From contig CALSMN010000005.1 in the NCBI GenBank assembly GCA_943787465.1, positions 62,001-126,000 on the forward strand: a stretch of DNA of 64,000 nt, written 5' to 3'. The notes below the pieces were generated by a model that saw only the letters and a program-made list of their open reading frames with translations, did no database searches and was not told the DNA's origin. Origin of the DNA: an uncultured Bacteroidia bacterium (lineage in GTDB: Bacteria > Bacteroidota > Bacteroidia > NS11-12g > UBA9320). Numbering within the stretch: position 1 is the stretch's first letter; each line of letters begins with the position of its first letter. The translations under genes were made by a program, and so were the position numbers. Below are positions 28,625 to 61,071 of this stretch, piece after piece.

Positions 28625-29411
28625 GTGCAGTCGATATTTACTTTCGAAAATCTGGGCACACTGTTTATGCTCATTTTACTTCAAATCGTATTAGGATTTG
28701 ATAATTTATTATATATATCCATTGAAAGTAAACGTGCTCCTTTAGGTAGACAAAATCAGGTACGAAAACTAGGAATAGGTATTGCTATTTTTTTGAGAAT
28801 TGGATTATTGTTTGTTTTAGTAAACTTAATACAAGTAGCAAACAAAATCATTTTTTCATTGGATTTTGATTATATAAATGGTCATTTTAACTTACACAGC
28901 TTAATTGTTCTTATTGGAGGTATTTTTATTTTGTACACAGCATTGAAAGAAATTTGGCACATGATTGCTCCCATTGATGACTTAAATAAATTGGAAGATA
29001 ATCAATCCAAAATCAGTAGGTTCTGTTATTGCTTGGATAGTTGTTATGAATTTAGTGTTTTCTTTTGATTCAATATTAAGTGCTATGGCTCTTACCCAAA
29101 TTTTTAGTATCATGGCTTTAGCAATTGTGATAGGTGGTATTCTCATGATTTGGTTAGCGAATGGAGTAGCAGAGTTTTTAGAAAAAAATAAACTATTTGA
29201 GGTGCTCGGTTTATTTATCCTATTTATTGTAGGGATTATGCTTCTTACTGAAGGTGCAGAATTGGCACACTTGCACATCCTAAATAATCCTATTGAAAAA
29301 ATGAGTAAAACAACCTTTTATTTTGTCATCATTGTTTTGGTATTGATTGATATTGTTCAATCAAGGTATCAAAAAAATATACTTAAACGTAATAAAAAAG
29401 GTATTGATTAA
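28625..29411 (+). pseudogene. TerC-family membrane protein, split by a +1 frameshift (ORF fragments 28625..29068 and 29046..29411)
   Basis: ILLQIVLGFDNLLYISIESKRAP in the first fragment; WIVVMNLVFSFDSILSAMALTQ...LEKNKLFEVLGLFILFIVGIMLLTEGAELAHLHI in the second. Removing one A from AAAA at 29009..29012 fuses them as ...EDNQSKSVGSVIAWIVVMNLVFSFDSI... Confidence 0.8.
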
Positions 29412-45873: not shown

Positions 45874-47032
45874 TTAATTAGAAACGCGTAATTTTTGATG
45901 GGGGTGTATTACATTTCCTCGGAGATTATTCCAAGACCTTAATTCAGCATTTGATATATCAAATTTTTGAGCAATCAGTTGAATACAATCACCCTTCTTT
46001 ACATAATAGTATCTAGGTTTAGGTCGATTCGCTATTTCGATTCGTAATTGTTCTGCTTTTAGTTCAGATTCTCTAATAATTGTTTCTTGTAATTCATAAA
46101 ACTGATTATACAAATGAGATGGTATGATTAGAAAGTACCCATCATCTTCGTAGGGTATCTCGTTTGACTTTATTTCAGGATTAATTTGGGCTAAATCTTC
46201 TACTGTAATTTCTAGATTTTTGGCAATGACAGAAAAATCTAGCCCTTTTTGACAAAATACTTTCTCTAACGTTAAAAATATCTGAGGAAATAGGTGCAGG
46301 AGTAATGCCATAATGATCATAAAAATTCATCATATAGGTGACAGCAATAAATTTAGGTACATAATTTTGAGTTTCTCTAGGTAAGTAATTGTAAATCCCC
46401 CAAAAATCTCTTTTACCTGAATTTCGCATTGCTTTACGGACATTACCTGGTCCACAGTTATATGCTGCTAAAGCCATATGCCAATCACCATATTGCTTAT
46501 ACATTTGCTGTAAATAGCTACAAGCTGCATGTGTACTTTTTTCTAAAGATCTTCTTTCATCAATTGAGCTATTGATTTCTAAATCAAAAATTCTAGCTGT
46601 AGCAGGCATAAATTGCCAGGGCCCTACTGCTCCCGCATGTGATCCAGCAAATGGATTTAATGCAGATTCAATAACCGATAAATATTTAATTTCCATAGGC
46701 ATGTCGTATGAACTGAGTATTTCTTCATAGATTGGAAATATATATTCAGACATCGTAATCATCGTTTTAAGTTTTGATTGCCAACGAATACCAAAAAAAT
46801 CAATTTGAGATTTCACATAATTATTGTAATCCATTGGGACTTCAAAGTCTTTAGAATTAATGTGACATTTGAAAAGTTCATAATTAACTGGCACTTTATT
46901 ATCTTCAAAGGAAACAATATCAATATTGAAATTTTCTTTTGGTGATGCTGATTTAGATAAAGAATCATCTACATCCGCAAAAGACCAAAAGGGTAATAAA
47001 AATACAATTACAAGAATTCCAAATTTTCGCAT
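45874..47032 (-). pseudogene. MltD-like lytic transglycosylase with LysM domain, split by a single-base frameshift (ORF fragments 46181..47032 and 45874..46320)
   Basis: SLT domain: IKYLSVIESALNPFAGSHAGAVGPWQFMPATARIFDLEINSSIDERRSLEKSTHAACSYLQQMYKQYGDWHMALAAYNCGPGNV; LysM: RYYYVKKGDCIQLIAQKFDISNAELRSWNNLRGNVIHPHQKLRV. Removing one T from TTTTT (46246..46250, + strand) restores ...ESILSKGLDFSVIAKNLEITVEDLAQINPEIK... Confidence 0.8.
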
Positions 47033-50204: not shown

Positions 50205-51431
50205 TTAGGTAATTAACTGTGTGATAAATGAAGAAAGTCTAAGTATAGTACGATTATTTTTTTGTGTGTATTTGTAATCTACTATTTCAGAAGGAAAACG
50301 AATAGATTCGATCAAATCAATGATTGCCTTTTGATTATTAAAATTTTGTATCAAGAATGCCTCACGATTTTTAAAATATTCTACGGTAAATTCTAATAAC
50401 ATGAATGACTTTATTTTGAGAACCATATCATCAAACGTAGAGCATACTTCACATAAATTTTCTAGACCAGAACCTTTAATCATCAATGGATTTACAATTG
50501 CAAATTTCCCTAGATACAAAGCATTGAGCAATTTCAATTTTATTCCAGTATTCTGTGATGTATACAAAACATTGATATGAGCATTTTGAATCAATTGATG
50601 AATTTGATTTGTGTTCAAGTTTGTTTTTAAAGTAATGTTACTATAACTATCACAACATGAAATCAATTCTTTTGGCGGATTATTACCAGCAATATATACA
50701 GGGATAGTGAGTTTTGAAAATACATTTTTCACCAATTCAATAGCTGCTTTGTAGTTTTCTGCCACCGATAAATTGCCATGATATAAAATATAGTCTCCTT
50801 TTTTTTCAACATAACTTAATTTCTCATTACTATGAAATGCTGGTATATATATAGAGTTATTGAATTTTTCATTAAAATACTGTTGGTCGCTTGGACTTAT
50901 AGCAGCGACGACATCAGCATGCTTTAATATATTTTGGTACTTTCTTAGCTTCTCGGCCTCAATCCTAAAAAAATATTTTTTAAAATACCTAATCTCTGAT
51001 TTTTCTAAATGTTTGTAATATGTATGCTCGATATTATGAGTTCGAACAATTTTAAATCGATTGGATAAAGCTGGATGAGTCAGATGAAAAGTACTATGTA
51101 GACCCTCAAAAATGATGGGTGCATTATCTTTTGATAAATTTGATAACAATAACTCATCATTTCGAGAACTGACGATATAGGGTTTGGATCCTATAAATGG
51201 ATTTCTAAATTTTCTACGTGTATAATAGTGAACAGATAAGCTATACTTCTCTAATTCTGTTCTATTTTGCTTTCTACCATAATTATACAAATGTAAAATT
51301 ACATCTACTCCAACTTTGTGAAGGGCTTTTAGTTTATAAAAAATATCAATAACCCCTCCATAGTCAGCAGGATATGGTACATCAAATGCTACAAGATGAA
51401 TGCGTTTATAGTCAAGAGACAATTTTTTCAT
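50205..51431 (-). CDS. Glycosyltransferase (GT1/GT4-like)
   Basis: HLVAFDVPYPADYGGVIDIFYKLKALHKVGVDVILH; FKIVRTHNIEHTYYKHLE; DVVAAISPSDQQYF; YILYHGNLSVAENYKAAIELV. Confidence 0.85.
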   Translation of the reverse strand: MKKLSLDYKRIHLVAFDVPYPADYGGVIDIFYKLKALHKVGVDVILHLYNYGRKQNRTELEKYSLSVHYYTRRKFRNPFIGSKPYIVSSRNDELLLSNLSKDNAPIIFEGLHSTFHLTHPALSNRFKIVRTHNIEHTYYKHLEKSEIRYFKKYFFRIEAEKLRKYQNILKHADVVAAISPSDQQYFNEKFNNSIYIPAFHSNEKLSYVEKKGDYILYHGNLSVAENYKAAIELVKNVFSKLTIPVYIAGNNPPKELISCCDSYSNITLKTNLNTNQIHQLIQNAHINVLYTSQNTGIKLKLLNALYLGKFAIVNPLMIKGSGLENLCEVCSTFDDMVLKIKSFMLLEFTVEYFKNREAFLIQNFNNQKAIIDLIESIRFPSEIVDYKYTQKNNRTILRLSSFITQLIT

Positions 51432-52505
51432 AAATCTTGATTAAGTTGATTTTTTCTTTGTTCCAATTCAATTCTTTTGCTGCAATGATAGTGTTGTCTT
51501 TTAACTCTTTATAAGCATTTTTATTATTGAGAAGCATATTAATTGCATTTGAAATTTTTGTGGGTTGGGCTTCAGAAAGATAACAGCATTTATACGTATC
51601 ATTTATGGCTTTGTATGCTGGAAATCCATTAGTAATTACCGGAACATGAGCTTGAATGTAATCAAAAAACTTATTGCTTAAGGAATAATAATAACTTAGA
51701 CCAAGCTTTTCCATTGAATTATATCCAACAAATGCATTTTGAGTAATCCCTTTAAGCTTATCTGGTTGTAATACTCCCAAAAAAAATATTTTATGACTTA
51801 ATTTATGAATCTCTATTAGCTTTTTTAATTCGTTTTCAATATCTCCTGTACCAGCTATTTTTAGGTGAATAGGAATGTCTTTCATAGCAATTATAAGTGC
51901 TTCAAGTCCTCTGCCTTTGTTTAGAGCACCTTGATAGATGATATAGGGTGTTTCCTCTGATTTAATTTCAAGACTCAATAACGATACTTCCGGACAGTTT
52001 CTAACCACTGCAAATGGCAGTTTATATAATTTTGTGTATATATCGGCAATGGGTTGACTCACAGTGATGGCTGCATCTACTCTGGGGACTAGATAGATTC
52101 AATCCAATTCCATATTTTTTTCTTTAGTGGTCGATGGATTAATTCTGGAACTTCTGTGAAATATTCATGTGAATCATATACAATTTTTTTACCTTTTAAT
52201 TTGGCTGCAAAAAAACCAGCAACCAATGTGTCTAAATCAACAGCATGAACAACATCAAATTCACTACTTAATAATCTATAAAAGAAACGAATATTTAATA
52301 TTAAATAAAATAAAGGGCCCTTATTTATTAAAAAACGAAGACGTACTTGTTTAAAATTTAAATGTTTAGCCTTAGTGTTGAATTTTTTTCGTCCCCACAA
52401 TTCTACATCATAAAAATGAGCTAACGTTGAGCATGTACGAATCATTCTCTGATCATACAACACATCATTTACGACTGTCGCTATTATTCTTGGTTTTTTT
52501 TCCAA
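51412..52505 (-). pseudogene. Glycosyltransferase (GT4-like) split by a one-base deletion (ORF fragments 52089..52505 and 51412..52062)
   Basis: Donor half VVHAVDLDTLVAGFFAAKLKGKKIVYDSHEYFTEVPELIHRPLKKKIWNWIES; the other frame continues LVPRVDAAITVSQPIADIYTKLYKLPFAVVRNCPEV...YIIYQGALNKGRGLEALIIAM. TAG stop at 52089..52091. Confidence 0.82.
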
Positions 52506-54371: not shown

Positions 54372-56447
54372 CTAAAGGATGGATTGATAGGATGAAATCA
54401 ATAGGGCTCCTAGATTTTTGTGTGGTGGTATATAATCTTGAAACCTTTCATAAGCAGTTGATCCTTTTAAAAAAGAACTATTCAAATCATTCCATAATTT
54501 TTCCCAGTTCAAATTTTCTTTCCTTCTTATGATTTCGTTCATAGAAAAACATAACTGATCATTAACCAACATCGTTCCAATTTGTTTGCTACTAATAATA
54601 TGAGCTTTTGGAGTATACTTTAAGACTTCTGATATAATATTATATCCTCCACAAGATCCAAGAAATACAATTTCAGCATTGGGAGTCAAACTTTTGATAG
54701 CTGCATCCACAAAATAAGAATGTCCCCGATGTACAACAATATCTGGCCAACGATTGGATTCAATAAATAACTGTTTTATGGCATCTTGACCGGCATATTC
54801 TGAATCAGGCTTATTGGCATAAATTTCAATTTTAGAACCTTTAACACTTCGTATAACTATATAGGTCCCGAAATCTTCTAAACGCCAATTTGGAGTAGTG
54901 AAAGTTCTCAAAAAATGATTAAACGAAGATCTTCCATCCTCATCATCAAAGAAAAAATGTTGCTGTACATTTTTTCCATCTTTAAAGATTCTATCTAAAG
55001 TTAGAATTTCAAAAGCTTGTTTCTTTGATTGGATAAAATTTTCAGATTCTTTATCATGATCAATATTACAAATACTTAAAATAGAACTGTATAATTTTCT
55101 GGCTTCAATATCTGAGTACATGAGACCGTTAAAATAGGTCAAAATAGCATCTTGAAACAAAAGTTTTGTAGAAATGGATTTGATGCTACCATAAGTATCA
55201 ACGATGGTAACTGCACTGCTAAGGTTATCATTAATGACTTCAATCTGTTGAACCAAATTTTTAAATAATTTTTGTTTTTCATACTCTCCCATTTTTGATA
55301 AAAAATCATCTAAAGTATTATAACCAGCACACATTTTAATAAAGGTTCGGAATCTGTTAAATTTCAAATCAAATAGAAATTCATAGGTGCTATTATTTTG
55401 AATTTTTGGAACTAAATGATGATACATTCCTAAAAAAGTAGAAGTATATATCTCATCTTCACTATAAACCATGAGCGTATAAATTTCATTAGCTTTCATT
55501 TCATTAAGAATACTAAAACGAATCTCATCTGATTCTTCATGAAGATCATTAATCATATTTACCTTTTTTAAGCATTGATATTTTAGTGCTTCGTCAGAGG
55601 AATGTTGAGCATAGATTACTCCATTTGATTGCATTTGAATGAGATAATTAAACAAGGATTGATCTGATTTGGCAATCTGGTGGGCCTTACTTATGCTAAT
55701 TTTATGATTTACAATGTCATTTAAAAGTATATAGGCTCTGGATATTGGGCCTACTTCCTCATAAATATCGTATACCACTTGAGTAATATTATTCTTACTA
55801 GCTTTAATAGACTGATGAATTGTATTCCAACTATGTAAGTAGGTTTTAATCTTCATTGGTGCTGTTTGCGCAACCTCGTCAAGAACCTCTGTAGAAAATG
55901 AAGCACTTTTAAACTCTTTGAAATGATCCAAAACGGCAGAGGGTTCAATATGGGCAGCAATTTTTAAAAAACTTCCCGCGATATTTTTATTTATATAGAA
56001 TGGAATACATTGAAGAGCTGGAAGAATGTTTGATTGTAAAATGGTTTGAATTCGCTTTGAATCATTAACACTTTGGATTTTTAATATGAGATCTATGGTT
56101 GGGCTGAACTGGGTATAAAAATGGACATTCTTGCTATTGACTTTTTGTAGGATGTCAAGTATATTTTGTGATTGTTTTATTTTTTGATCAATGATTAAAG
56201 AACGATCTCCAATGATACGGTCAACTATTTGTTGAGTATGAGTTAAATAGATAAGTGTACCTTGGTAAGATTGTATATCACTTTTGAGAGTCACACGTTG
56301 ATCATTAACATGATCTATTAAATCTATTCTTATTTGTTCGTTTTTAATAGATTCAAGTATTGCATCTAACTGACTATTAGCTTTTAATTTTATAGTTGTA
56401 AATAAAATTATAGCTAAATATATAACCGTAAGTAGTGACTTATTCAT
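54372..56447 (-). CDS. Exported protein of unknown function with putative clan-CD (caspase/gingipain/CHAT-like) C-terminal domain
   Basis: Signal-peptide-like MNKSLLTVIYLAIILFTTIKLKANS; C-terminal DIVVHRGHSYFVDAAIKSLTPNAEIVFLGSCGGYNIISEVLKYTPKAHIISSKQIGTMLVND. Confidence 0.7.
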   Translation of the reverse strand: MNKSLLTVIYLAIILFTTIKLKANSQLDAILESIKNEQIRIDLIDHVNDQRVTLKSDIQSYQGTLIYLTHTQQIVDRIIGDRSLIIDQKIKQSQNILDILQKVNSKNVHFYTQFSPTIDLILKIQSVNDSKRIQTILQSNILPALQCIPFYINKNIAGSFLKIAAHIEPSAVLDHFKEFKSASFSTEVLDEVAQTAPMKIKTYLHSWNTIHQSIKASKNNITQVVYDIYEEVGPISRAYILLNDIVNHKISISKAHQIAKSDQSLFNYLIQMQSNGVIYAQHSSDEALKYQCLKKVNMINDLHEESDEIRFSILNEMKANEIYTLMVYSEDEIYTSTFLGMYHHLVPKIQNNSTYEFLFDLKFNRFRTFIKMCAGYNTLDDFLSKMGEYEKQKLFKNLVQQIEVINDNLSSAVTIVDTYGSIKSISTKLLFQDAILTYFNGLMYSDIEARKLYSSILSICNIDHDKESENFIQSKKQAFEILTLDRIFKDGKNVQQHFFFDDEDGRSSFNHFLRTFTTPNWRLEDFGTYIVIRSVKGSKIEIYANKPDSEYAGQDAIKQLFIESNRWPDIVVHRGHSYFVDAAIKSLTPNAEIVFLGSCGGYNIISEVLKYTPKAHIISSKQIGTMLVNDQLCFSMNEIIRRKENLNWEKLWNDLNSSFLKGSTAYERFQDYIPPHKNLGALLISSYQSIL

Positions 56448-56967
56448 TCAATTTATTAAATATTTCCCATAAAGCTATCCCCGCTGAAACCGAGACATTA
56501 AAAGAGTGTTTTGTTCCAAATTGAGGTATTTCGACAACTTGATCGCAATAGCCTAAAATGTTTTCATCTACACCATCCACCTCATTACCAACGATTAATA
56601 CTATTGTTTTATTTTTAGGAATATGAGCCTCCCTAAGAGGCACACTATCTTTAACTTGTTCAAGTGCAATGATATGACAACCAACTAACGTTTCTATAGC
56701 TGCATGAGTGGTCTGATAATACATCCAGTCTACCGTAGTTTCAGCTCCTAAGGCTGTTTTTCTAATATCCCTGTGGGGTGGTGTTGCTGTAATTCCACAC
56801 AATAGTATTTTTTCTATCCTAAATCCGTCACATGTTCTAAAAATTGCCCCTACATTGTGCATGGAACGTATATTATCAAAAACAAGGATAATTGGTGTTT
56901 TTGAAACTTTCCTATATTTTTCAACAGTTAGTCGATTCAAATCTTGGTTTTTTACCTTGCGAGTCAA
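56440..56967 (-). CDS. TrmH/SpoU-family RNA methyltransferase
   Basis: ILVFDNIRSMHNVGAIFRTCDGFRIEKILLCG; IVLIVGNEVDGVDENIL; VEIPQFGTKHSFNVSVSAGIALWEIF. Confidence 0.93.
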   Translation of the reverse strand: MTRKVKNQDLNRLTVEKYRKVSKTPIILVFDNIRSMHNVGAIFRTCDGFRIEKILLCGITATPPHRDIRKTALGAETTVDWMYYQTTHAAIETLVGCHIIALEQVKDSVPLREAHIPKNKTIVLIVGNEVDGVDENILGYCDQVVEIPQFGTKHSFNVSVSAGIALWEIFNKLNE

Positions 56968-56984
56968 AATATTACTTTATAGAA

Positions 56985-59591
56985 TTGGGTACGAAGATAA
57001 AACAGCAAAAAGAAACTCCACTAATGAAGCAATTTAGAGAGATAAAAGCTTCATATCCAGGTACTTTATTACTTTTTAGGGTGGGTGATTTTTATGAACT
57101 TTTTGGAGATGACGCTGTAATTGCCTCAAAAATTTTAGACATTGTTTTAACCTACAGAAAAAATGGAGCTGCAGGGAATGTAGAATTAGCTGGTTTTCCT
57201 TACCACTCACTTGACACATACTTACCTAAATTGATTCGGGCTGGTCAACGCGTTGCTATTTGTGAACAACTGGAAGATCCTAAATCAGTAAAGGGTATTG
57301 TCAAAAGAGGGGTTACAGAACTGATAACTCCTGGTGTTTCTACAAATGATAAAACTTTAGATAGTAAAAGTAACAATTATTTAGCCGCAGTCTTTCAATC
57401 AAAAAACAAATACGGTGTCGCTTTTTCAGATTTAAGTACTGGAGAATTCATGGTTGCTCAAGGCAGCATCTCATACATTCAAAAATTAATATTATCCATT
57501 CAACCTTCAGAAATTGTTATCAGCAAAGATTATAAGAAAATTTTTGTATCCACATTTGGTGAGGACCTCTACCACTACCCCATTGATTCTTGGTTTTTTG
57601 AATATGATTTTGCGAAAGATCAATTATTAAATCATTTTAAGGTTACTACTTTAAAAGGATTTGGTATCGATCAATTGGAGGAAGCCATTGTGGCTGGTGG
57701 AGCAATTCTTCATTACCTTAATCAAAGTCATCACATTAATCTTGATCACATTAATACCATCAAACGAATTGATGAACACGAATTTTTATGGATCGATTCA
57801 TTTACACTTCGAAACTTAGAACTTATACAGAGTAATCACCCCAATGGTAAATCACTATTGGATATAATAGATCATACTATCACTCCAATGGGGAGTAGGC
57901 TATTAAAGAAATGGCTTCTTTTCCCCCTTTTAGATATTCAACAGATAAAAGATCGTCAATCCACAGTAGAATATATTCTCAATAGTCAATCATTCGATCA
58001 TTCTTTAAGTAAAGAGATTGCTCAAATTGGTGACCTAGAACGAATTATTAGTAAAGTAGCACTAAAACGAATCAATCCACGCGAATTAATTCAATTATCA
58101 ATAGCGCTTAAATCCATTAATCGGATTCAAAAACTTTGTACTGATTCAAAAGATGACTCCATTAGTCAATATGCACAAAATCTCATTAATAGTGATGAAA
58201 TTATTGGTTTAATTGACTCACACATCTCTGAAGATGCTCCTGTAGTTGTAAGTAAAGGAGGTATTTTTAAACTGGGTGTTAATGATGAACTTGATGAATA
58301 CATATCAATTTCTAAAAACAGTAAAGATCACCTTATTGGTATCAAAAATAGAGAATCTGAACGTACACAAATTTCGAGCTTAAAATTAGCCTATAATAAT
58401 GTGTATGGATACTACCTAGAAGTCACACATACTCATAAAGATAAAGTTCCTGAAGATTGGATACGAAAGCAAACATTAGTAAATGCAGAACGCTATGTTA
58501 CACCTGAACTTAAAGTCTTAGAAGAAAAAATTCTACTTGCCGAAAGTAAAATTTCTGAAATTGAATCCGGCCTATATTCTAGTTTTATTGATAATTTAAT
58601 CGTTTATGTGACACAAATTCAAAAAAATGCATCATATATAGCTGAGCTTGATTGTTTAAAAAGTTTTGCTCAAGTTGCTAAACAAGCCAACTATGTGAAA
58701 CCTAAATTATCATCTGATTTTCATATTGCAATTAAAGATGGAAGACACCCTGTTATAGAGCAACAACTTGATACAGGAGAAACCTATATTCCCAATGATT
58801 TATATTTAAATGATGACGAGCAACAAATTATAATACTGACAGGTCCGAACATGAGTGGTAAATCTGCTTTATTAAGGCAAACAGCATTAATAGTCATTCT
58901 CGCTCAGGTTGGATCTTATGTTCCAGCAAAACATGCAGAAATTGGAATTATTGATAAAGTGTATACTCGTGTTGGTGCTTCCGATAATATTTCTCAAGGA
59001 GAATCTACATTTATGGTAGAAATGGTAGAAACTGCATCCATTTTAAATAACCTATCTAAGCGTAGTTTAGTGATATTAGATGAAATTGGAAGAGGAACTA
59101 GTACTTATGATGGTGTAAGTTTGGCATGGAGTATAGCAGAATTTTTAAATAAGAGTAGAGAGAAACCCAAGACATTATTTGCTACTCACTATCATGAATT
59201 AAATCAGTTAGAAGAGTCTAATCATGGAATTATCAATTATCATATTAGCACAGAAGAAAAGAAAAATAGAGTTATTTTTTTACGGAAAATGAAAAAAGGT
59301 GGAAGTGAACACAGTTTTGGTATACATGTAGCAAGTATGGCAGGAATTCCAAAACCAGTCATCAAACGAGCCGATGCTATTTTAAAACATTTAGAAAATG
59401 ATCGATCAAAAATCAATGCTACAACATCAATTAAAAAAGTTACAGATCAAATACAGATGAATTTATTCCAAGTTAATGATCCAAAAATGACTGAAGTTTT
59501 AAGTTTTTTAAATAATTTGGACGTTAACAATCTGACTCCAATAGAATCATTAATGAAATTAAATGAAATCAAACAAATTCTTGAAGACTAA
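56985..59591 (+). CDS. mutS: DNA mismatch repair protein MutS (likely TTG start at 56985; ORF track begins at 56892)
   Basis: KQQKETPLMKQFREIKASYPGTLLLFRVGDFYELFGDDA; ILTGPNMSGKSALLRQTALIVILAQVGSYVPA; LVILDEIGRGTSTYDGVSLAWSIAEFL; LFATHYHEL. Confidence 0.96.
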   Translation: MGTKIKQQKETPLMKQFREIKASYPGTLLLFRVGDFYELFGDDAVIASKILDIVLTYRKNGAAGNVELAGFPYHSLDTYLPKLIRAGQRVAICEQLEDPKSVKGIVKRGVTELITPGVSTNDKTLDSKSNNYLAAVFQSKNKYGVAFSDLSTGEFMVAQGSISYIQKLILSIQPSEIVISKDYKKIFVSTFGEDLYHYPIDSWFFEYDFAKDQLLNHFKVTTLKGFGIDQLEEAIVAGGAILHYLNQSHHINLDHINTIKRIDEHEFLWIDSFTLRNLELIQSNHPNGKSLLDIIDHTITPMGSRLLKKWLLFPLLDIQQIKDRQSTVEYILNSQSFDHSLSKEIAQIGDLERIISKVALKRINPRELIQLSIALKSINRIQKLCTDSKDDSISQYAQNLINSDEIIGLIDSHISEDAPVVVSKGGIFKLGVNDELDEYISISKNSKDHLIGIKNRESERTQISSLKLAYNNVYGYYLEVTHTHKDKVPEDWIRKQTLVNAERYVTPELKVLEEKILLAESKISEIESGLYSSFIDNLIVYVTQIQKNASYIAELDCLKSFAQVAKQANYVKPKLSSDFHIAIKDGRHPVIEQQLDTGETYIPNDLYLNDDEQQIIILTGPNMSGKSALLRQTALIVILAQVGSYVPAKHAEIGIIDKVYTRVGASDNISQGESTFMVEMVETASILNNLSKRSLVILDEIGRGTSTYDGVSLAWSIAEFLNKSREKPKTLFATHYHELNQLEESNHGIINYHISTEEKKNRVIFLRKMKKGGSEHSFGIHVASMAGIPKPVIKRADAILKHLENDRSKINATTSIKKVTDQIQMNLFQVNDPKMTEVLSFLNNLDVNNLTPIESLMKLNEIKQILED

Positions 59592-61071
59592 ATTTTTATT
59601 ATTTTTATTTTTTGCGCAATTCAAAATTTTTGCGCAAGTAAGTTGGATTTATTTTACTGATAAATGTAATACTGACATCCCTTTTTTTGATGCATCGGTA
59701 TGTGATGAATATATCAATGCACTTGAAGAAGACAATATCCCAATTATAGGTAAAAGTAGGTGGCTAAATGCTGTTTGTGTAAACAATCAATATGTCGATC
59801 AATTAAATTCATATTCATTTATAAGTCACATCGAATCGTCTAACCGCTATTTCGTTCAACCTCAAAGGATATTAGAAGAGTATGCTTATGGATACAGTGA
59901 TTTACAGTTAGATATGTTGGGATTAAAATCCTATCACCAATTGGGATATACTGGCAAAGAAGTAACCTTAGCATTATTTGATGGAGGGTTTTGGAAAGTC
60001 GATAGTTTGCCCATTTTTGATTCGTTATGGGCAAATAATCAAATTAAAGCTACTAAAGATTTTGTAACTAATGACTCTATGACTTTCAATGAAAGTACAC
60101 ATGGTATGCAAGTTTTAGCACTCGCTGGAATAAACTATCCAGATAGCATGATTGGTGCAGCTCCTGGTGCGTCCTTCATGCTCGCTCGGACAGAAAATGT
60201 ATACAGCGAAACACACTTAGAAGAACTGAATTGGATCAACGCATTGGAATGGGCAGATTCTATTGGAGTCGATATCATTCACTCGAGCTTAGGTTATTCA
60301 TTATTTGATTCTTTACAAGGCGATTATTCCTATGCCGATATGGATGGGCAAAGTACTATCATTTCTATTGCCGCTCAGAAAGCTACAGAGCGGGGGATTT
60401 TTGTTACAAATAGTGCAGGTAATTCTGGAAATAAACCATGGTATTACATCACCGCTCCGTGTGATGCAGAAGATGTTTTGTGTGTTGGTGCTGTTGATAG
60501 TAACCGTTCGATAACTGCTTTTTCAAGTAGAGGTCCTTCTTCAGATGGAAGAATAAAACCAGAAGTATGTGCGATGGGAAGCAAAAATACGGTCCCTGAT
60601 AAAAATGGATTACTGATGAAAGGAAGTGGCACCTCTTTTTCTGGTCCATTGATAGCCGGATTGATTGCTTGTATTAAATCCGCTCATCCATCTAGAACAA
60701 ATCAGGAAATATATGCAGCTGTTATTCAAAGTTGTGATCGATATAACCAACCCGATAATGCCTATGGCTATGGAATTCCAAACGCAATGAAAGCAGATAG
60801 TATTTTAACCCATACTCCTAACCTATCCGCAAATCAAAAATCACTGCCCGAGTTGGAAATATATCCCAACCCTGCTCAGGATATGCTTAAAGTAAGAACA
60901 CAACCGGGGACCCTCTACCAATTAATCGATTACACTGGACAAGTCGTAATTTCGGGAGAATTTGTAAATTGGATCAATTTTCTAGATCTGAATTCTTTTT
61001 CTACAGGAGTATTTTATTTGACTACCTTTAAAGATAATTATTCAATAGTTAGGCAAATTATCATTAACTAA
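59563..61071 (+). CDS. Subtilisin-like S8 serine peptidase with T9SS type A sorting domain
   Basis: VTLALFDGGFWK (Asp), STHGMQVLALAG (His), GSGTSFSGPLIAGLIACI (Ser); LEIYPNPAQDMLKVRTQPGTLYQLIDYTGQVV...STGVFYLTTF. Confidence 0.9.
   Translation: MKSNKFLKTKFLLFLFFAQFKIFAQVSWIYFTDKCNTDIPFFDASVCDEYINALEEDNIPIIGKSRWLNAVCVNNQYVDQLNSYSFISHIESSNRYFVQPQRILEEYAYGYSDLQLDMLGLKSYHQLGYTGKEVTLALFDGGFWKVDSLPIFDSLWANNQIKATKDFVTNDSMTFNESTHGMQVLALAGINYPDSMIGAAPGASFMLARTENVYSETHLEELNWINALEWADSIGVDIIHSSLGYSLFDSLQGDYSYADMDGQSTIISIAAQKATERGIFVTNSAGNSGNKPWYYITAPCDAEDVLCVGAVDSNRSITAFSSRGPSSDGRIKPEVCAMGSKNTVPDKNGLLMKGSGTSFSGPLIAGLIACIKSAHPSRTNQEIYAAVIQSCDRYNQPDNAYGYGIPNAMKADSILTHTPNLSANQKSLPELEIYPNPAQDMLKVRTQPGTLYQLIDYTGQVVISGEFVNWINFLDLNSFSTGVFYLTTFKDNYSIVRQIIIN

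Follow-up and report, generated by a model that had tools for sequence, protein, structure and literature searches.

The focal locus and its relatives

During our analysis of a 64,000-nucleotide stretch of the uncultured Bacteroidia genome (hereafter the window) we examined a gene at 54372..56447 that is predicted to encode a 691-residue protein. The initial annotation had listed a 691-aa open reading frame at these positions without giving a strand; its translation and its orthologues indicate that the gene is real and lies on the minus strand. Directly upstream, also on the minus strand, is a gene for a SpoU/TrmH-type RNA methylase (56440..56967; Pfam PF00588, conserved order), the end of which overlaps the focal start by 8 nt, and the two genes are probably co-transcribed. 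The focal gene is followed downstream by recQ, and mutS is divergent from the methylase gene. Of 40 loci from the same order, 23 had the methylase directly 5' of the focal gene, and several of the remaining loci are truncated contigs. From this context we regard the focal gene as an ordinary chromosomal gene outside any mobile island.

Adjoining mutS, at 59563-61071 (+), we noted a subtilisin-like secreted serine peptidase (S8-type by eye) with a T9SS-type C-terminal tail, the order of which relative to the focal gene is also conserved. Elsewhere in the window three genes appeared to be split. A glycosyltransferase at 51412-52505 (-) occupies two frames (a Glyco_transf_4 part and a Glycos_transf_1 part) and is a single ORF in the related locus L031, making a frameshift or an assembly error likely; a TerC-family gene at 28625-29411 (+) is split between two overlapping frames, one matching profile positions 1-92 and the other 109-177; and a lytic transglycosylase (SLT) with a LysM tail at 45874-47032 (-) is likewise in two overlapping frames, suggesting a frameshift. 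That 64 kb contain three split genes hints that the assembly has indel errors.

A single-copy homolog of the focal protein was present in 31 of 38 genomes from its family, in 21 of 22 when only those of good quality are counted, and in 65 of 108 genomes from its order. Across 396 genomes sampled phylum-wide, the only matches were in the source genome itself and in a second family of its class (here called f3), where 13 genomes carried a homolog and two of these a second copy. A protein search of plasmid records further identified homologs on large replicons of four species of Azospirillum (Alphaproteobacteria), with 22.8-31.6% identity over the matched part, every one annotated as "hypothetical protein". 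In a tree of the C-terminal domain the own order, f3, and Azospirillum each formed one group, and this clean topology fits long vertical inheritance within the Bacteroidota. Searches of viral contigs and phages found no relatives of the focal protein, and Foldseek found no match among viral models.

The f3 homolog is divergent from genes for an OmpR-type response regulator and a histidine kinase in 12 of 15 f3 loci (L254-L265), a pair that is perhaps envelope-sensing; as it is absent from the focal locus, we claim no functional link. A sigma-54 promoter for the f3 regulator was considered and dropped, given that the regulator belongs to the OmpR type and that no site looked convincing. By eye, an ABC-transporter-like gene and genes resembling those of ATP synthase often come after the f3 homolog. 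In three Azospirillum species (L250-L252) the neighbors are fixed, comprising a DUF1194 protein, a LysE transporter, a GGDEF protein, and ethanolamine ammonia-lyase, and two Azospirillum copies have a GETPARG/GETPTRS-type repeat linker ahead of the domain.

An export-type N-terminus, a helical solenoid, and a conserved C-terminal domain

The first ~24 residues (56376..56447, minus strand) resemble a signal peptide, as the initial annotation had proposed, and lack a lipobox. Export was called with a crude hydropathy rule (a hydrophobic, positively led stretch with a small-residue site) rather than with SignalP; by this rule 51 of 59 homologs had a signal-peptide-like N-terminus compared to 9 of 1200 internal windows, and most of the homologs that failed looked similar by eye (e.g., ...LAFAQK). 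The annotated starts of two Azospirillum homologs (L249, L252) are likewise signal-peptide-like. Since no extra C-terminal secretion domain follows the putative catalytic domain, the location would most simply be periplasmic. Export had been thought unusual for CHAT-type domains, a view that did not hold in this phylum: CHAT proteins occurred in 52 of 99 sampled genomes of the phylum, and 7 of the 8 Bacteroidota TPR-CHAT proteins that could be resolved (from L229-L242) had signal-peptide-like N-termini. Judged from their sequences, exported TPR-CHAT/caspase-like proteins are common in this phylum.

AlphaFold2 modeled the whole chain with a mean pLDDT of 89.8 (41 homologs), and the model agreed with the description of the N-terminal ~480 residues as helical, being an almost wholly helical alpha-solenoid from about residue 26 to 478 (55014..56372, minus strand). 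Two solenoid motifs were conserved in a 63-sequence Bacteroidota alignment, namely the invariant N300..H303..R310 (NDLHEESDEIRF; 55515..55550, minus strand) and YTS[ST]F at residues 334-338 (55434..55448, minus strand), in which T335 and S336 are invariant. Azospirillum retains R-F of the first motif and YTSS of the second.

The remainder of the protein, residues about 480-691 (54375..55010, minus strand), was predicted to form an alpha/beta/alpha domain, which AlphaFold2 modeled on its own (58 homologs) with a pLDDT of 92.6 and a pTM of 0.90. The predicted order of elements is b1 (492-498), a1, three short strands (521-545), a2, b3 (570-574), a3, b4 (593-596), a4, b5 (616-620), and a5, followed by more helices. 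We compared residues in two alignments of this domain, one of 58 Bacteroidota rows and one of 28 rows that includes Azospirillum. A DxDG motif (residues 502-505; 54933..54944, minus strand) ends the first strand and is a candidate S1 acidic site; D502 and D504 are invariant in both alignments and G505 in the 28-row alignment. HRGHS (573-577; 54717..54731, minus strand) lies at the end of the 570-574 strand and is invariant in complete domains, with H576 the candidate catalytic His. GSCGG (597-601; 54645..54659, minus strand) lies at the end of the 593-596 strand, with C599 the candidate nucleophile and both G597 and C599 invariant, and SKQIGTMLVN (620-629; 54561..54590, minus strand) follows strand 5, with N629 invariant and G624 invariant in the 28-row alignment.

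These features matched the motifs that had been described from the sequence. The stretch DIVVHRGHS ends at S577 and C599 sits within AEIVFLGSCGGY, so that the Cys claimed to follow the His motif by ~25 aa is 26 residues from H573 and 23 from H576; the proposed strand-His, strand-Cys layout is reproduced in that HRGHS and GSCGG end successive AlphaFold2-predicted strands; and the downstream AHIISSKQIGTMLVNDQ and PPHKNLGALL, noted as conserved-looking, are both present and both conserved. H573, R574, G575, H576, S577, and C599 were invariant in 58 of 58 Bacteroidota domain sequences and in 4 of 4 Azospirillum homologs, i.e., in every complete domain, and this invariance across the two groups indicates that the motifs are more than chance. 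The constancy of the His and Cys residues extends from marine Bacteroidota to soil Azospirillum, at a cross-phylum identity of about 31%, and H573, H576, and C599 are the only invariant His or Cys in the domain in either alignment. The GSCGG motif has the variants GGCGG and GSCGA in two f3 members, with the Cys never altered.

In total, 19 residues of the domain were invariant across Bacteroidota and Azospirillum (F499, D502, D504, G505, P568, H573, R574, G575, H576, S577, G597, C599, G600, G624, N629, W648, W652, Y672, and P675). Of these, 13 map to the C-terminal edges of strands 1, 3, 4, and 5 (hypergeometric P about 1.5e-7), a clustering that in the model looks like the active-site cleft of a parallel-sheet enzyme.

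Relationship to clan CD and alternative explanations

Searches of Pfam, NCBIfam, PHROGs, PADLOC, and PDB sequences with single sequences and with profiles returned chance matches only, which agrees with the initial annotation's view of the domain as new, and searching the literature for the motifs gave no relevant result. No homolog scored above the Pfam cut-off for CHAT (PF12770) or Peptidase_C14 (PF00656), and neither a CHAT nor a C14 protein was found in the source genome. Peptidase families C11, C25, U57, and C50 were absent from the Pfam matches of the focal protein and its homologs; the source genome lacked C11 and U57 proteins and contained a single C25 protein, a 1297-aa frame distinct from the focal gene that, from its size and phylum, may be PorU.

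By the published definition (PMC4357240), a clan CD peptidase has a six-stranded sheet in which strand 3 ends, at its C-terminal side, in the His of the catalytic dyad and strand 4 in the Cys; the His precedes the Cys in the sequence and has a Gly neighbor. The focal domain has a His followed by a Cys, both strictly conserved (58- and 28-row alignments), the His ending strand 3 and the Cys strand 4 in the AlphaFold2 secondary structure, and an invariant G575-H576 pair. Relative to the clan CD fold of five parallel strands and one antiparallel strand with five helices, the predicted order of elements matches through strand 5 and helix 5, and the sixth, antiparallel strand is a two-residue bridge at most in the predicted secondary structure. 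The motifs VVHRGHS and GSCGG also resemble those of C14 (FYYAGHG and DSCHS) and CHAT (LHFATHG and LSAC) in having Gly-His or His-Gly surroundings and [AS]-C; aligning VVHRGHS with FYYAGHG and LHFATHG places the catalytic His at H576, which from these sequences is the likelier catalytic residue (RGHS, cf. AGHG/ATHG) than H573.

Comparisons of fold and profile were less definite. In a Foldseek search with the domain model no clan CD chain was among the best 50 of 1518 matches, the best of these 50 being small-GTPase-like with TM ≤ 0.48, and a search with the whole chain matched the Craspase TPR-CHAT protease (7y84_C) at a non-significant E-value of 0.72. HHalign against the CHAT profile aligned C599 with the CHAT Cys with a score of 24.5 that 0 of 160 shuffled CHAT profiles reached, and the associated probability of 4%, or 10% after exchanging query and template, is not significant alone. 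The match to C14 had a probability under 1% and was inside the shuffle range. MEROPS clans are assigned by structure, and families such as YabG have been put forward as clan CD members although their sequences show no likeness (PMC12445089); given this precedent, a missing sequence match does not rule out clan CD. The initial annotation's clan-CD-like cysteine peptidase is thus upheld in its underlying observation and in motif order, strand placement, Gly-His and [AS]-C motifs, export, and the helical part. Support for the clan CD fold itself is less definite, with no clan CD chain among the best 50 Foldseek matches and HHalign to CHAT or C14 not significant alone, and the rarity of export for CHAT-type domains is not upheld in this phylum. 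We describe the domain as clan-CD-like, the model being consistent with membership in the clan CD fold.

We considered whether the domain could instead be a His-Cys hydrolase or acyltransferase with a Rossmann-like fold that reached this arrangement independently and is perhaps no peptidase. That the Foldseek matches were only to generic Rossmann/GTPase-like folds, and that no sequence family matched, would suit such an origin, but we think it less likely, as the strand placement, the His-Cys order, and the Gly-His and Ser-Cys pairs are all as in clan CD, and the alignment to the CHAT profile, which covers the Cys strand, outscores shuffles. A small GTPase itself was rejected, as the strand-1 loop reads FFDDEDG with no P-loop GxxxxGK[ST]. 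The invariant HxxH, Cys, and two Asp, which share one edge of the modeled sheet, could also be read as a metal-binding or redox site (H573, H576, C599, and D502/D504) rather than a nucleophilic enzyme; however, GSCGG and GHS appear to be typical nucleophile and base contexts, and a Ser before and two Gly after the Cys would suit an oxyanion hole over a ligand loop, making this improbable.

A class I glutamine-amidotransferase-like (clan PC) domain was suggested by GATase_3 (PF07685) matches in 11-14 members (best E-value 8e-4) and by HHalign probabilities of 46-75% for the 18-27 columns surrounding the Cys, and CobB/CobQ proteins of this family do share a G-x-C-G-G-Y stretch. The likeness is local only, confined to the GxCGGY elbow, and 12 of 80 block shuffles scored as high. 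Clan PC requires a catalytic His after the nucleophilic Cys, whereas in neither of our alignments is there an invariant His after C599; the invariant His come before it, i.e., the order of catalytic residues is reversed, and on this order and the shuffle test we rejected the assignment as very improbable. That the domain is an active-looking, non-catalytic scaffold kept for the solenoid is scarcely credible: although N300, H303, R310, T335, and S336 of the solenoid are conserved as strongly as the active-site motifs, strict His/Cys invariance across phyla would be unexpected of a dead domain.

Proposed function and comparison with known systems

We favor, with a probability of roughly 0.6, that the focal protein is an exported cysteine hydrolase, likeliest a clan CD-type peptidase, that is probably periplasmic and gated by its solenoid. 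The gene, its conservation, the domain layout, the placement of residues on predicted strands, and the export-type N-terminus are the observations from which we infer catalysis, peptidase activity, P1 preference, and regulation by the solenoid. In the mechanism we propose, C599 would serve as nucleophile, with H576 as general base, both sitting at the central sheet's C-terminal edge, and the glycines following C599 may form the oxyanion hole. The D502-x-D504-G505 loop after strand 1 could bind a basic P1 residue (Arg/Lys), since L1/alpha1 is among the three regions that set P1 in clan CD and acidic residues there accompany Arg/Lys (PMC4357240). The residue at C-2 in the focal protein is Gly (G597), making the choice of P1 uncertain; this position is acidic in many Arg/Lys-specific clan CD enzymes, and in clan CD as a whole an acidic residue or Gln is frequent there. 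The alpha-solenoid might present substrate, or restrain the enzyme until a partner binds, as in TPR-CHAT and separase, where access to the dyad is controlled by the remaining protein or a partner (PMC9729208); given the conserved motifs in the solenoid, a comparable control role is plausible here.

A more specific proposal, which we offer tentatively and at somewhat less than even odds, is that this is an undescribed clan CD family of envelope-exported proteins with the architecture of separase and TPR-CHAT, near-universal and single-copy in some streamlined Bacteroidota and present in Azospirillum, that acts as a housekeeping site-specific protease and not as a defense or death effector. The known bacterial caspase and separase relatives have mostly been connected with defense, cell death, or virulence. 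An exported, vertically inherited, single-copy relative in 2-Mb genomes would, if the proposal is true, suggest that the Bacteroidota envelope has a housekeeping proteolytic step and would provide a new test case for helical-repeat control of caspase-type domains. A probable active site can now be assigned to a family labeled "hypothetical protein" in the records we saw; the protein looks like a member of a new family with a well-defined putative active site and like a distant caspase-type cousin.

Among known systems, C14 caspases, metacaspases, and orthocaspases (PF00656) share GH[GS] and [DG]SC motifs with the focal protein, in which they end consecutive predicted strands, but there is no Pfam match, the HHalign score is not above shuffles, and the focal C-2 residue is Gly. 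YabG (U57, proposed for clan CD) offers a precedent for a bacterial His-Cys protease without sequence likeness to other clan CD families (PMC12445089), but is a sporulation protein of endospore formers, and Pfam scans gave no PF05582 match to the focal protein. The Craspase TPR-CHAT protein (Csx29) and separase (C50) also combine helical repeats with a terminal caspase-like domain, and the H2003-C2029 spacing of human separase (26; PMC9729208) equals that of H573-C599; both are intracellular, however, and have no sequence match to the focal protein. The exported TPR-CHAT proteins of Bacteroidota (PF12770) have a signal peptide, N-terminal helical repeats, and a C-terminal His-Cys domain in common with the focal protein, and their Cys strand aligns with it in HHalign; they differ in a His-Cys spacing of about 40-50 in sampled CHAT proteins vs. 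23-26 here, and the focal domain is shorter, single, and without a Pfam CHAT score.
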